From positions 1 to 64,000 of the forward strand of contig NZ_WIQU01000014.1 of NCBI RefSeq assembly GCF_015732285.1: a DNA stretch of 64,000 bases. The letters are read 5' to 3'. This document shows, piece by piece, positions 18,328 to 22,776 of this stretch. The DNA is from Pectinatus frisingensis. GTDB taxonomy: Bacteria > Bacillota > Negativicutes > Selenomonadales > Selenomonadaceae. Each line of letters begins with the position of its first letter. The stretch's first letter is position 1. A program made the position numbers and the translations under genes. A model generated the notes under the pieces. It was not told the DNA's origin and did no database searches. It was given only the letters and a program-made list of their open reading frames with translations.

Positions 18328-18606
18328 TTAACTTAATGCTTTATCAAGTGCTGTTTTTACATATTTTTTTATTTCTTCATAGCTTTGTCCCGGTTGAGCT
18401 TCATATAATTTTTCCCTGCCAATGAATAAAGAAGGCACATAATAATATTCATAACCTTTTATGGCGTCAGGTTCTTCATTTTCCTCATGCCATTGAATAG
18501 GAACAGCTGAATAATCTTCATTTTCCATTATCAATTCTTTAATAGCCTTCTTGGCTTTATGACAATAAGGACAATCTGTCAAGTAAAATGCCGTAATTGT
18601 TTTCAT
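18328..18606 (-). CDS. Glutaredoxin-like thiol oxidoreductase
   Basis: This 92-residue thioredoxin-fold protein has the dithiol active site CPYC at residues 12-15. A cis-Pro motif follows (YYYVPSLFIG). The length and spacing fit glutaredoxins that reduce disulfides or serve as electron donors. It is monocistronic and divergent from the HTH-desulfoferrodoxin gene, with about 210 nt between the starts. That would fit a redox-related neighbourhood, but the link is only positional. Confidence 0.88.
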   Translation of the reverse strand: MKTITAFYLTDCPYCHKAKKAIKELIMENEDYSAVPIQWHEENEEPDAIKGYEYYYVPSLFIGREKLYEAQPGQSYEEIKKYVKTALDKALS

Positions 18607-18818
18607 GTGTAATCCCCCTTTTATGTTAATATGTTAAGCGTACTTTAATTCTCAGGTATTGTCAATTATGTTCATACTGCAAAATACTTTTCCATTGAGC
18701 ATATCGCCTAATCTTTCAATAACTCTCCTGCCGTTGAATACTTTTTGTCTTACTCTACGGAAAGTTTATTGAAAAACAATCGAAAGTTTTATACAATTCA
18801 ATATGGAGGTACTGTTCA

Positions 18819-19403
18819 ATGGAAAATAATAAAATAGGAAATGTAATTCGCATATTGCGGCAAAAAGCAAATATGACACAAAAACAACTTGCAGATAAAA
18901 TGAATATTAGTGATAAGACCGTTTCCAAATGGGAACGCAATCTGGGATGGCCAGATATTTCACTTATAGCTCAACTTTCGAATATTCTTAATGTGGACAC
19001 ACAGAAATTATTGCTTGGTGATATAACTCCAAATGATATTGTAGCTGGTAATATGAAAAATACAAAATATTATATCTGTCCGTCATGCAACAATATTTCA
19101 CTTTGTACTGGTAGGGCAACGGTTTCATGCTGCGGCAAACAATTAAGAGAACAAACTGTTAAAAAGGCTCCGGAAAATGAAAAATTATCAGTACAGTTCA
19201 TAGAGGACGACTGGCATATTACCAGTAATCATCCTATGTTAAAAACACATTATATTTCCTTTGTAGCATTTACTGCAGGGGGCCAAATCAATTTACTCAA
19301 GCAATATCCCGAATGGGACTTAGATGTACGAATTCCCAAAAGAGGTCATGGAATGCTGATATGGTATTGCACTATACATGGCTTATTTTATCAATTGATC
19401 TAA
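18819..19403 (+). CDS. XRE-type DNA-binding domain fused to a desulfoferrodoxin-like domain
   Basis: Residues 5-66 of this 194-residue protein are a Cro/CI helix-turn-helix (MTQKQLADKMNISDKTVSKW). Residues 84-110 match the desulforedoxin centre: C87-x2-C90 and the pair C104-C105 followed by GK. Residues 133-194 match the superoxide reductase iron site: HPM at 138 with H144 (H-x5-H), and C184-x2-H187 in YCTIHGLF. The His usually found in a KHVP motif is replaced (KKAP, residues 115-118). So it may be an iron- or redox-sensing repressor rather than an enzyme. GGAGG precedes the ATG. Ligand matches are seen; sensing is inferred. Confidence 0.8.
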   Translation: MENNKIGNVIRILRQKANMTQKQLADKMNISDKTVSKWERNLGWPDISLIAQLSNILNVDTQKLLLGDITPNDIVAGNMKNTKYYICPSCNNISLCTGRATVSCCGKQLREQTVKKAPENEKLSVQFIEDDWHITSNHPMLKTHYISFVAFTAGGQINLLKQYPEWDLDVRIPKRGHGMLIWYCTIHGLFYQLI

Positions 19404-19621: not shown

Positions 19622-20293
19622 ATGAGAAAACGGCGGCGTTCGGAAGACCATTTAACAGAAGTCCGGCACAAAATCTTAAACAGTGCTAAGGATCTTTTCA
19701 CTCATCAAGGATACAAAAAGACTACTATTCGGCAAATTGTGGAAAAATCCGGCATATTGACCGGAAGTATCTACTATCTTTATAAAAATAAAGAAGATAT
19801 TTTTCAGGCTTTAATTTTATCTTTGACCAAAAATTGTATCAAAAAAATAGATGATGTCTATGCCGAGGAGTCACCTGAATTTCGCTATGCAGCTGTGTGC
19901 GCTGTGGAACTAAAAACTGTAGAAAACGATGCCATTGTCCGGGAATGTTACTTTGCCGGATATTCTTCCCGCATGATATTTGAACAATTGGTAATACAAT
20001 TCACAGATTTAGCAATGGCACTATTTACAGGTACAAAACATGCCTGTTCCAGAGAGGATTACTTTCATAAGACATTGCTTATCAAGGGCGTTATGCGAAG
20101 CTGCGTTGCTGAGTTTTATTTTACACAGCCAATAAATCACCAGATAAGTTGTCATCAGTGTATTGCTTTGGCTCTTTATATTCTCGGTTTTGAACAGTCT
20201 GAGATCACTCATGTAATTAGCAGAATTGAAAATTTAACTGATGAATGGTCACGGATTGGTAATCACTTGCGGGATTATCCAGTTGAAAAATGA
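19622..20293 (+). CDS. TetR-family transcriptional regulator
   Basis: This 223-residue protein has a TetR N-terminal helix-turn-helix (ILNSAKDLFTHQGYKKTTIR, then SGILTGSIYYLYKNKEDIF) and a helical ligand domain with several Cys residues. AGGAGG precedes the ATG. It lies 178 nt upstream of two ABC-2 permease genes in the same direction. Similar inverted repeats lie before both tetR and the permeases. Repression of the export genes is the natural inference; the inducer is unknown. Confidence 0.9.
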   Translation: MRKRRRSEDHLTEVRHKILNSAKDLFTHQGYKKTTIRQIVEKSGILTGSIYYLYKNKEDIFQALILSLTKNCIKKIDDVYAEESPEFRYAAVCAVELKTVENDAIVRECYFAGYSSRMIFEQLVIQFTDLAMALFTGTKHACSREDYFHKTLLIKGVMRSCVAEFYFTQPINHQISCHQCIALALYILGFEQSEITHVISRIENLTDEWSRIGNHLRDYPVEK

Positions 20294-20333
20294 ATTAATC
20301 TGCATATATCAATATTTTTTTATTCATTTTTTT

Positions 20334-20343
20334 GAACACGTTC
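20334..20343. promoter_or_regulatory. Second candidate TetR operator
   Basis: TTGAAC-AC-GTTCAA surrounds the core GAACACGTTC, close to the core GAACATATTC before tetR. It lies about 130 nt before the first permease gene, upstream of a TATAAT at about 20422. Confidence 0.45.
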
Positions 20344-20471
20344 AATGAATTATTAAAATAACTTCAATCCAGCCAAATTAATAACTTATACTGTATTGCT
20401 GCAAATAAACTTTGAGTCAGTATAATATCCGGCTCTATTACAAATACAATTAAGGCTACAGGTGATATTCC

Positions 20472-21623
20472 ATGAATTTTCTTACTGTTTTACGTGATGA
20501 AACAAAATATATTTTTAGCGGCCGTTTTCCTATTGTTCTTATAATTTTCTTTGTACCATTATTGTTCACTATACTTTTCGGTGTCATATATGAAAAAAAC
20601 GTTGTCAATAATATCCCTATGGCTGTATATGATCAGGATCAAAGTAAATTAAGCCGGGCACTCATCCAGGCATACAATGATTCAGAACGATACAATATTA
20701 TTACTTATGTACAATCACAGGAAGATTTAGAAAATCAAATTTTAGAGGGTAAAGTTCTCATTGCCCTTGGTATCCCCAATAATTTTTCAAAACAAGTAAA
20801 ATTGGGACAAAAAGCTAATATATTGTTTATCGTCAATTCGACAAATAATATGTTCGGCAATGCAGCCATAAGTTCCGCCCAAGAAATAAACAGGACTTTT
20901 TCGCTGGCAGTTGGTTCACAAATACTCGAGGCTGGCGGGCTTCTTCCGCAAAATGCCATAAATGCAGTTTACCCAATACATCTTGGAGTACGTATTCTCA
21001 ACAACCCAATTAATGGTTATGGTCCTTTTATGCTGTCGGGTCTTATGCTCAATGGATTTCAAATTGGGCTTATGCTTGCTTTTGCCCCATCCGTTGTTAC
21101 AGAAATACTCCGTCGCCGTTACGGTAGAGAATATTCTTCCCTAGCAATTGCTATAGGAAAATTCATACCATACTGGCTTGCCAGCCTTATATCTTTTGCT
21201 TTATCCCTTTCCGTCATCGTATATTATTTTGATATACCAATGCATGGTAACTGGAGCGAAGCACTCTGTCTGGCCGGAGGATTTTCATTCTTTGTGCTTT
21301 GTGTACTTATGCTATTTTCAGCTTGCTGCCCATCTCGAATTTTATCTCTTCAGGTTCCGATGGTGTACATTATGCCAGGTCTTTTATACAGCGGCCTGTC
21401 TTGGCCGTCATTTGATATGAATGCTGTTGCGGGAACTATTTCCCTGTTTCTTCCCATGTCCTGGGCTGGAGATAATCTGCGTGACATCTTATTAGCAGGA
21501 TATGCTCCCCGCCTGTGGCATGATTGTATGATAATGTTTGTTGATGGATGCATTGCAGCATCATTAGCAACTTTGGTTGTTGCTATCCGCAGACACTATG
21601 AATGGAAAAGGGGGAATAAATAA
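20472..21623 (+). CDS. ABC-2 type transporter permease (YhhJ/DrrB-like)
   Basis: The 383-residue protein has one N-terminal membrane helix, an extracytoplasmic domain of about 140 residues (MAVYDQDQSKLSRALIQAY…) and five or six C-terminal helices. This is the ABC2_membrane_3 layout of drug or polymer exporters. Usually such permeases pair with an ATP-binding subunit and often a membrane-fusion protein. Neither is present here. The gene ends 1 nt before the second permease start, so the two are translationally linked and probably form a heterodimer. Confidence 0.88.
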   Translation: MNFLTVLRDETKYIFSGRFPIVLIIFFVPLLFTILFGVIYEKNVVNNIPMAVYDQDQSKLSRALIQAYNDSERYNIITYVQSQEDLENQILEGKVLIALGIPNNFSKQVKLGQKANILFIVNSTNNMFGNAAISSAQEINRTFSLAVGSQILEAGGLLPQNAINAVYPIHLGVRILNNPINGYGPFMLSGLMLNGFQIGLMLAFAPSVVTEILRRRYGREYSSLAIAIGKFIPYWLASLISFALSLSVIVYYFDIPMHGNWSEALCLAGGFSFFVLCVLMLFSACCPSRILSLQVPMVYIMPGLLYSGLSWPSFDMNAVAGTISLFLPMSWAGDNLRDILLAGYAPRLWHDCMIMFVDGCIAASLATLVVAIRRHYEWKRGNK

Positions 21624-21624
21624 T

Positions 21625-22776
21625 ATGCAGCTCATTATAAGTCTTTTCCAGCGGGAATGGCAACAGTGCATTCATGATATCAGACGTTTCATATTTCTTT
21701 TTGGTGCCGCAGTAGCTTATCTCGTTATATTTGGTCTTTTGTATGTTCCCAACATCATAACACATGTTCCCTGTATTATTTATGATAACGACCAATCTGT
21801 TCTAAGCCGTCAGCTTACTCGAAAATTTGAAGACAGTGACAGTTTTCGCGTAATAAGCTATGCCACCTCAGAAGAAGAAATGCTATCGGCTCTACAGGAA
21901 AAACGAGCTTATGCCGCTATAGAAATTCCTAAAAACTTTTCGCAGAAAATAAAAATTGGTGACTCATCTACGTTGCTTTTTATGGTTAATGGTTCCAATA
22001 TTATTCTAACTAATATTACCAGTTCGGCAGCGCAAAACATTACAACGCATTTTTCTGATCACTTAGCGAGCCAGCAGGCAGCATTGCGCTATTCTTTGGA
22101 TCAACAGGCCGCACTGCAGCGCATTGCTCCCATACAATATAACTTTCGAATTCTCGATAACTCTACGCAAGGTTATACTCTATTCTTTCTTATAGGATTG
22201 GCTCTTGTGGCATTCCAGCAGGGTATATTCTTCAGTGTAGGTGCCTCAACGACTTATGAATACGAGCACCCGGAACTGCGCAGTAAATTCAAAACCGAGC
22301 AATTAATGTTGATAAAATATATATTTTACTGGATTTTATCCATGTTTTCCTATTATCTGGTGGTCTTTCTATGCCACGTATTATGGAATATTCCTATAAA
22401 GGCTCCATTATGGCAAATATCTATACTAGGAGCAGCTTTTTGCTTTTCTGCTATAGCCTTTTGTACATTTTTTGCTTCTTTATTCCGCAAAGAAATGCAG
22501 TTTGTGCGTGGTATTATTATGTATCCTGTCCCAGCGTTTATTTTTTCCGGCTATACTTGGCCTGCTGTATCAATGCCGCCAGTCATGCAGACTCTCGCAG
22601 CTGCATTTCCATTATCATGGTTATCCAATACTGCCCGAGAATTGTTCCTTTCCGGCGGCTCACCACATCTGAGCCAAAGTGTTCTGGCCTTAATAATACT
22701 AGGCATTGTTTGCAGCATACTGGCTTATATTACTTATGATAACGGCTTGAAAGAAACGAGAACATCTGTCAAATAA
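21625..22776 (+). CDS. ABC-2 type transporter permease, second subunit
   Basis: This 383-residue paralogue of the preceding gene has the same topology: an N-terminal helix, an external domain starting VPCIIYDNDQSVLSRQL, and a C-terminal helix bundle with a YTWPAVSMPPVMQ segment. The ATG at 21625 has AAAGGGGG upstream. A frame extending 48 nt into the previous gene is unlikely. No ATPase gene follows; the transcript runs into repeat copy E and the convergent ATP synthase operon. The ATPase must be encoded elsewhere or shared. Confidence 0.88.
   Translation: MQLIISLFQREWQQCIHDIRRFIFLFGAAVAYLVIFGLLYVPNIITHVPCIIYDNDQSVLSRQLTRKFEDSDSFRVISYATSEEEMLSALQEKRAYAAIEIPKNFSQKIKIGDSSTLLFMVNGSNIILTNITSSAAQNITTHFSDHLASQQAALRYSLDQQAALQRIAPIQYNFRILDNSTQGYTLFFLIGLALVAFQQGIFFSVGASTTYEYEHPELRSKFKTEQLMLIKYIFYWILSMFSYYLVVFLCHVLWNIPIKAPLWQISILGAAFCFSAIAFCTFFASLFRKEMQFVRGIIMYPVPAFIFSGYTWPAVSMPPVMQTLAAAFPLSWLSNTARELFLSGGSPHLSQSVLALIILGIVCSILAYITYDNGLKETRTSVK

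Follow-up and report, generated by a model that had tools for sequence, protein, structure and literature searches.

A predicted operator and a candidate flavoprotein target for an HTH-Dx-SOR regulator of Pectinatus frisingensis

What does a protein do that joins a DNA-binding domain to the fold of a superoxide-handling enzyme? The question is raised by a gene for a protein of 194 aa (18819..19403, forward strand) in the 64,000-nt stretch of Pectinatus frisingensis DNA analysed in this study, referred to below as the window. The architecture itself is already catalogued: HTH-Dx-SOR was described in 2011 as a domain class of SORGOdb, comprising 19 of 325 proteins and having the same domain order, an N-terminal HTH before a Dx-SOR module (PMC3116461). 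The sections of that paper available to us give no operator, regulon or function for the class, and within the openly searchable main texts the name HTH-Dx-SOR was found in that paper alone and no functional study was found. This study adds a predicted operator, a candidate second target and a corrected ligand assignment; together with the placing of the ligand exchange on a tree, the operator and the second target make the question of function directly testable.

The gene is real and encodes an XRE helix-turn-helix fused to a modified superoxide-reductase module, as judged from the ORF call, Pfam and TIGRFAM profiles and structure comparison. It is preceded by a ribosome-binding sequence GGAGG (18805..18809, forward strand), and dN/dS within the regulator family is mostly far under 1 in close pairs. 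The XRE domain, residues 1-69 (18819..19025, forward strand), agrees with the description in an earlier note on this DNA, with HTH_3 matching residues 10-63 at E 5.9e-15 and 55.5 bits, above the curated Pfam cut-off of 23. On the C-terminal part both available profiles fall below their curated cut-offs (PF01880, 20.4 bits against 22.2; TIGR00320, 27.4 bits against 146.9), and the desulfoferrodoxin 2ji2 of the PDB is a weak sequence match to residues 83-188 (E 0.015). An AlphaFold2 model, built from the window protein and 18 relatives, has a mean pLDDT of 78.6 and a pTM of 0.53, with the linker at 69-78 poorly predicted. Compared by VIA-align 2, model residues 77-194 match the superoxide reductase 1y07 (Z 12.7, rmsd 2.4, 114 residues), 1dfx (Z 12.1) and 2ji1 (Z 11.7), the last two over 114-115 residues, while residues 1-68 match the phage and Bacillus repressor domains of P22 c2, SinR and ImmR (Z 11.8-12.3). 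Foldseek agrees with the SOR fold (TMt 0.72). Of the desulfoferrodoxin-like character proposed in the earlier note, the fold is thus clearly borne out, with Z of 11.7-12.7 against SOR and desulfoferrodoxin crystals, and the profile matches are not; the lack of a structural match, named there as a refuting outcome, did not occur. HTH, Dx and SOR lie in one chain, with HTH_3 above its cut-off and the C-terminal module in the SOR fold.

The desulforedoxin-like Cys4 centre I consists of C87, C90, C104 and C105 in the arrangement CX2CX13CC (19077..19133, forward strand), a spacing shared by the relatives. Four centre II ligands can be read from the translation between 19230 and 19379 on the same strand, namely H138 (19230-19232), H144 (19248-19250), C184 (19368-19370) and H187 (19377-19379). 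All eight residues were found at the numbers already assigned to them. The claim that the first active-site His is replaced by Lys fared otherwise and appears to be a misalignment: relatives such as L048, which reads DEKHRL, place the His on E121 of the window's ENEK (codon 19179..19181, forward strand), and the change therefore looks like His to Glu, an argument from alignment. We take this place to be H49 in the numbering of 2Fe-SOR. When six stand-alone desulfoferrodoxins, all from the window's class, are added to the MAFFT alignment, the EKH loop shifts by three residues, so equating position 121 with the catalytic His depends on rows like L048 and on the family's His column, and is an argument and not a measurement. 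The window protein keeps three centre II His and the Cys, one His short of the four that, with one Cys, mark a superoxide reductase; its EKH positions read E-N-E, with the Glu (E119) kept and the Lys of the Glu-Lys pair lost.

The same positions were followed through 88 distinct family proteins, a set that excludes five duplicates and the partial matches G641 and G763. Position 121 is His in 54, Glu in 24, Pro in 4, Asp in 3, and Asn, Lys and Leu in one each. C87, C90 and C104 are invariant (88/88) and C105 is Cys in 85; in centre II, H138 is present in all 88, H144 is His in 83, C184 is Cys in 84 and H187 is His in 75, and the set of five ligands is complete in 44. Of the 88 relatives, 2 have the EKH Lys, 48, among them the window protein, have Glu at 119, and one has the full triad. 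The Dx spacing CX2CX13CC is found in 88/88 family proteins as against CX2CX15CC in all six stand-alone desulfoferrodoxins, and the four Cys here likewise depart from the CXXCX15CC that SORGOdb, in the sections available, gives as the Dx motif (PMC3116461). With a loop two residues shorter than the known one, Fe(Cys)4 coordination is not assured. K142 (85/88), Y163 and E165 (both 88/88) are features of the fusion family that are absent from the six stand-alone copies. In L016, L017 and L021 three further centre II ligands are lost; the SOR parts of L016 and L017 differ at dN 0 and dS 0.27, and L016 and L021 at dN/dS 0.06, where dS is close to saturation at 1.68. That the SOR fold stays conserved once ligands are gone points to a role of the module other than catalysis. 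The short Dx segment gave dN/dS of 0.46 and 0.70 in two Desulfosporosinus-type pairs, values that reflect few changes, and several comparisons with the window protein were saturated.

A single scan of 84,980 species genomes returned 20 relatives, in Sporomusa, Megasphaera, Pelosinus, Desulfosporosinus, Lacrimispora and others. By profile search, a full or nearly full regulator gene is present in 48 of 380 genomes of the window's class, including 2 of 5 of its genus; in two of the 48 carriers (G294 and G084) the gene is cut by a contig end. In a sample of the phylum, matches at E <= 1e-30, some of them partial, occurred in 30 of 398 genomes. Among plasmids, 2 of 179 matching records cover at least 80% of the query, one of them a 2.6 Mb Acetoanaerobium record, and 18 others among the matches listed align with the N-terminal half only. 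A tree of 94 rows, midpoint-rooted, with the six stand-alone proteins included and some backbone forks weak, separates the fusion family from the other rows by a 100/100 branch, and the outermost rows of the family are those with His-121. One clade of 29 rows (99/89) holds Glu 24 times, Asp three times, Asn once and Lys once, and five rows elsewhere have Pro or Leu. Since 54 of 88 proteins keep the His and 44 keep all five ligands, yet share the fusion and the operator described below, the fusion would predate ligand loss and the exchange of His for Glu would have come later, in one clade of this sample. The earlier proposal, in which the loss of a ligand turned the enzyme into a sensor, gains no support from these counts. 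One partial relative, L178 (G763), is a Dx-SOR protein of the fusion-family type of about 142 aa, apparently without an HTH.

Upstream of the window gene lies a conserved block that is the probable operator of the HTH-Dx-SOR regulator: TCTACGGAAAGTTTATTG (18754..18771, forward strand), in family form TCTACG-nnn-CGT-[A/T]n-[A/G]TTG and in summary form CTACGnnnCGTAG-[A/G]TTG. The block is shared by close and distant relatives: many of them read CTCTACG-nnn-CGTTTATTG, the divergent ones CTACGCnGCGTAGGTTG or GTAG, and the palindrome CTACGnnnCGTAG occurs in divergent family members. The site overlaps the -35 box of the gene or operon. In the window, a promoter scan and offset count place the -35 hexamer TTGAAA at 18769..18774, its first three bases being the operator's end, and the -10 hexamer TACAAT at 18792..18797, after a spacer of 17 nt and 20 nt past the operator, both on the forward strand. 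The window operator itself departs from consensus with GGAAAG for GGAGCG.

All 85 loci that score at least 200 bits have the operator, ahead either of the gene itself or of the operon to which it appears to belong. In 74 of them the site falls within the region scored and has no more than two mismatches (none in 43; one of the 74 sites came from an operon walk), and in the other 11 it precedes the leading gene of that operon; pair-block shuffles gave a match as good in 1 of 800 segments. Because the consensus was drawn from the same upstream regions as were scored, the genome scan described below and a matrix trained on one clade are the less circular tests. The matrix, made from 23 window-clade sites, scored 41 of 58 outside contexts above the 99% level of 1160 shuffles and 31 of 58 above their maximum. 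The 17 contexts below the control level comprise nine whose site is found where the operon begins (L159, L161-L166, L168, L170) and eight in which the site has diverged. Of 74 sites, 69 have TAnnnT at an offset of precisely 20 nt past the operator, and the next best offset reaches 20 of 74; if the offset is instead chosen by similarity to TATAAT only, 20 nt wins outright in 28 of the 74, shares first place in 26 and is not best in 20. Such a fixed register to the -10 box would suit a regulator that touches RNA polymerase, as in class II activation, and equally one that represses by overlap, and decides for neither.

Within the 64-kb window the only operator match with 0 mismatches is the one at 18754-18771. 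With three mismatches allowed the window is at chance level, with 12 matches against 9.9 expected, and the promoter scan is at background, with 10 found against 7.5 expected. No operator was found at the partial loci L175 and L177, and L107 has a site; these three score under 200 bits, being split or cut genes, and lie outside the 85. L020, which has an internal stop, and L014 and L111, which offer no complete ORF that could be used, are without a context row. In one clade (L159, L161-L166, L168) the regulator is the last gene and the operator is about 2.6-3.1 kb upstream, with a small unnamed ORF, a DUF6530 gene, unclustered in L162, and then a CobT/VWA-like gene in between. Truncated, HTH-only copies of the regulator in L252 (G318) and L250 (G084) keep the operator.

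The exact pattern TCTACGRNNNGTTNATTG was scanned in the 380 class genomes and gave 57 matches in 41 genomes, against 12 for the reversed-pattern control. Thirty are at HTH-Dx-SOR promoters, 11 at a second type of locus and 16 elsewhere, and the window's genome carries both kinds of site. The 16 leftover matches are apparently chance: 14 are inside ORFs, one lies only in a 57-aa ORF and one in none, and within the stretches examined the flavoprotein does not follow any of them. At 9 of the 11 second-type loci, a flavoprotein of one family lies downstream. It is the first ORF of note at G000, G092, G093, G094 and G292:C7:15218, follows a short remnant of the regulator's HTH in G084, and stands behind a small ORF, with or without DUF2087, in G075, G077 and G145. 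The remaining loci are G292:C4, where only the small ORF and DUF2087 lie behind the site, and G318, where an HTH fragment, the small ORF, DUF2087 and a CAT-family gene are followed, 1.8 kb on, by the regulator and flavoprotein; the other ten second-type sites are at least 14 kb from a regulator gene or on another contig.

Exact searches in chosen carriers used patterns that came from known sites and so asked only about extra sites. Twenty genomes gave 11 matches (11 genomes; control 2) and 13 carriers gave 12 (8 genomes; control 0), and 21 of these 23 are at family genes or operons by position. Of the others, G735:C28:1069 precedes an MFS transporter and then the small-ORF gene, and G651:C42:54 sits at a contig end and so is not assignable by position. 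The small ORF recurs behind the operator in L243, L244, L248, L249 and L252, often with DUF2087 after it; its length is about 117 aa, or 92 in the call for L252. Two copies tried against Pfam gave no match; it may be GIY-YIG-like.

The flavoprotein of the window's genome (G000:C10:10664-11341), behind the site TCTACGGAGCGTTTATTG, has FMN_red and flavodoxin-like domains by Pfam and the cysteines C48-x2-C51-x2-C54-x7-C62. Iron-sulfur flavoproteins (Isf) are said to react with O2 and H2O2, as a reference title has it. A profile search of the PDB with the flavoprotein returned only 7d38 and 1rli, neither of them named Isf. Its resemblance to the Isf family consists in the FMN_red/flavodoxin domain together with a compact Cys motif, here CX2CX2CX7C, of the CX2CX2CX5-7C kind described for iron-sulfur flavoproteins in the available part of PMC3164229. 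Close orthologues (E < 1e-80, a cut set at a gap seen in the result, from 5e-81 to 2e-47) occur in 11 of the 380 genomes, and all 11 are among the 48 regulator carriers, a co-occurrence with p 4e-11 when genomes are treated as independent, which they are not. Nine of the 11 stand behind their own operator and two directly behind the HTH-Dx-SOR gene. At the search's own threshold of 1e-40, 20 genomes match, of which 17 are carriers, and G071, G090 and G298 have no full-length regulator; a close orthologue is missing from 37 of the 48 carriers. Related FMN_red genes, some only distantly similar, adjoin the regulator in 14 contexts, 13 of them with CX2CX2CX5-7C (that of L007 is a fragment). The Isf-like flavoprotein is probably the partner enzyme and target of the regulator. 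In G000:C10 (L242) the operator-flavoprotein locus is divergent to a gene that appears nifH-like by eye.

We consider it likely that the protein is a dimeric regulator, with the modified SOR module as its sensor, that binds CTACGnnnCGTAG before its own gene and before the flavoprotein. An autoregulating iron or redox sensor controlling an Isf-like flavoprotein is the best reading of the locus. Computation supports the fold, the domain order, the ligand pattern, the register of promoter and operator, the two kinds of locus and the co-occurrence; binding of the predicted site by the HTH, the iron content, the signal, the dimer, and activation or repression are what we infer. The pair of HTH domains would grip the site over the -35 box of the regulator's own promoter, and the second operator copy, elsewhere in the genome before the Isf-like FMN_red enzyme, would be bound likewise. 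The Cys4 centre I would bind one iron, and centre II of most members another, the first His being replaced in the window clade by Glu or Asp. When the protein meets O2, superoxide or redox-cycling compounds, the iron may change its redox or ligand state, and this change may pass through the Dx dimer to the HTH pair, so that the flavoprotein and the regulator's own gene would be switched, much as SoxR responds to redox-cycling drugs. SoxR, a MerR-family protein with a [2Fe-2S] cluster, is a working analogy: an iron-based redox sensor with a small regulon of flavoprotein and efflux genes. The earlier description of the protein as a sensor that controls transcription gains genomic support from the conserved probable operator before the gene and before a separate flavoprotein gene, although the reason then offered, ligand loss, is not supported.

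More tentatively, and with rather more doubt than belief, we suggest that the SOR iron site itself is the signal receptor. Superoxide or O2 would then act at a mononuclear Fe(His/Glu/Cys), with CTACGnnnCGTAG bound at a fixed -10 register, His-to-Glu retuning in one clade, and control of an oxygen-consuming iron-sulfur flavoprotein in strict anaerobes. If centre II is indeed the receptor, a superoxide-handling enzyme fold would have become a transcription sensor in anaerobic bacteria.

It is unlikely, in our judgement, that the centre binds zinc or is structural, that a redox-cycling or nitro-aromatic drug or Cys4 thiol oxidation is sensed, and that the regulon confers drug resistance. CAT-family acetyltransferases do lie in or near the regulator operon in L106, L136 and L153 (cluster 22; Pfam was run on the L106 protein only) and an MFS transporter lies directly behind one operator (L314), but such neighbours are few and the commonest partner found is the Isf-like flavoprotein. 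The near-constant Cys4 centre beside drifting centre II ligands (C87, C90 and C104 in 88/88, the fourth Cys in 85) would suit zinc or a structural role, whereas H138, H144, C184 and H187 are mostly kept. We regard it as quite improbable that the protein acts chiefly as a superoxide reductase, its HTH serving autoregulation only and the flavoprotein being its electron donor. Complete centre II ligand sets in 44 of 88 relatives and the Glu retained at E119 would agree with catalysis, as would a reference title in SORGOdb according to which a neelaredoxin without the conserved glutamate ligand still reduces superoxide. However, 86 of 88 lack the EKH Lys and one has the whole triad, the first His is gone from the window clade, and L016, L017 and L021 are conserved despite losing three further ligands.

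Also weighing against the enzyme reading, PF01880 matches 310 of the 380 class genomes and 44 of the 48 regulator carriers (best E <= 7e-17; G294, G296, G093 and G289 have no match), and in at least 26 of the 44, among the matches listed, this strong SOR-type match has its best place elsewhere than in the fusion gene. A separate Dx-SOR match exists in 7 of 18 carriers beyond those 26 (G000, G064, G066, G067, G318, G346 and G347), and the window's own genome holds a stand-alone desulfoferrodoxin with EKH. It seems very improbable that the conserved box is the site of some other regulator of the gene and flavoprotein, with the HTH acting on other targets. In its favour, autoregulation by HTH-Dx-SOR is a prediction, and PMC12565409, in the part available, raises as a speculation that other factors bind some of the palindromes found before XRE genes. 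Against this, the box stands at 85 of 85 loci from many families, 30 of the 41 genomes with an exact match carry the regulator gene, and of the 16 leftover matches 12 fall in the remaining 11 genomes, where 11 are inside ORFs and the twelfth lies only in the 57-aa ORF. The motifs CTACG and CGTAG are absent from the main text of PMC12565409.

Among known proteins, the closest in build is desulfoferrodoxin, or 2Fe-superoxide reductase (1dfx, 2ji1 and the own-genome copy L002), with which the regulator shares the fold, the Cys4 centre, four of five centre II ligands and the first Glu of EKH. In contrast to desulfoferrodoxin, an HTH is added here, the Lys and His of EKH are lost, the latter to Glu, and the Dx loop is shorter. 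MsrR of C. glutamicum is likewise an XRE regulator of oxidative stress, thiol-based by its title, and the text available does not mention a SOR-fold sensor (PMC7532634). Other candidates were set aside on the parts of the papers available: TrtA of Treponema denticola (PMC12724145) has 104 aa and no SOR module is named, so it does not belong to the HTH-Dx-SOR family; Xtr of C. difficile (PMC13260099) has a different box and desulfoferrodoxin is not named; and PMC11980386, on ROS defence in C. difficile, contains no such HTH-SOR fusion.

The divergent neighbour, described earlier as a glutaredoxin, exists as a 92-aa ORF with a CPYC motif (18328..18606, reverse strand; Glutaredoxin E 3e-5, Thioredoxin_3 E 7.4e-6). 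A blastp search against the ORFs of the 88 family contexts matched only the ORF itself; with no relative in the 87 other contexts it was rejected as a conserved partner, and it is probably not part of the regulator's system. Further along the window, 19622-22776 holds a TetR regulator and then two membrane-protein ORFs that resemble ABC-2-type permeases by eye.
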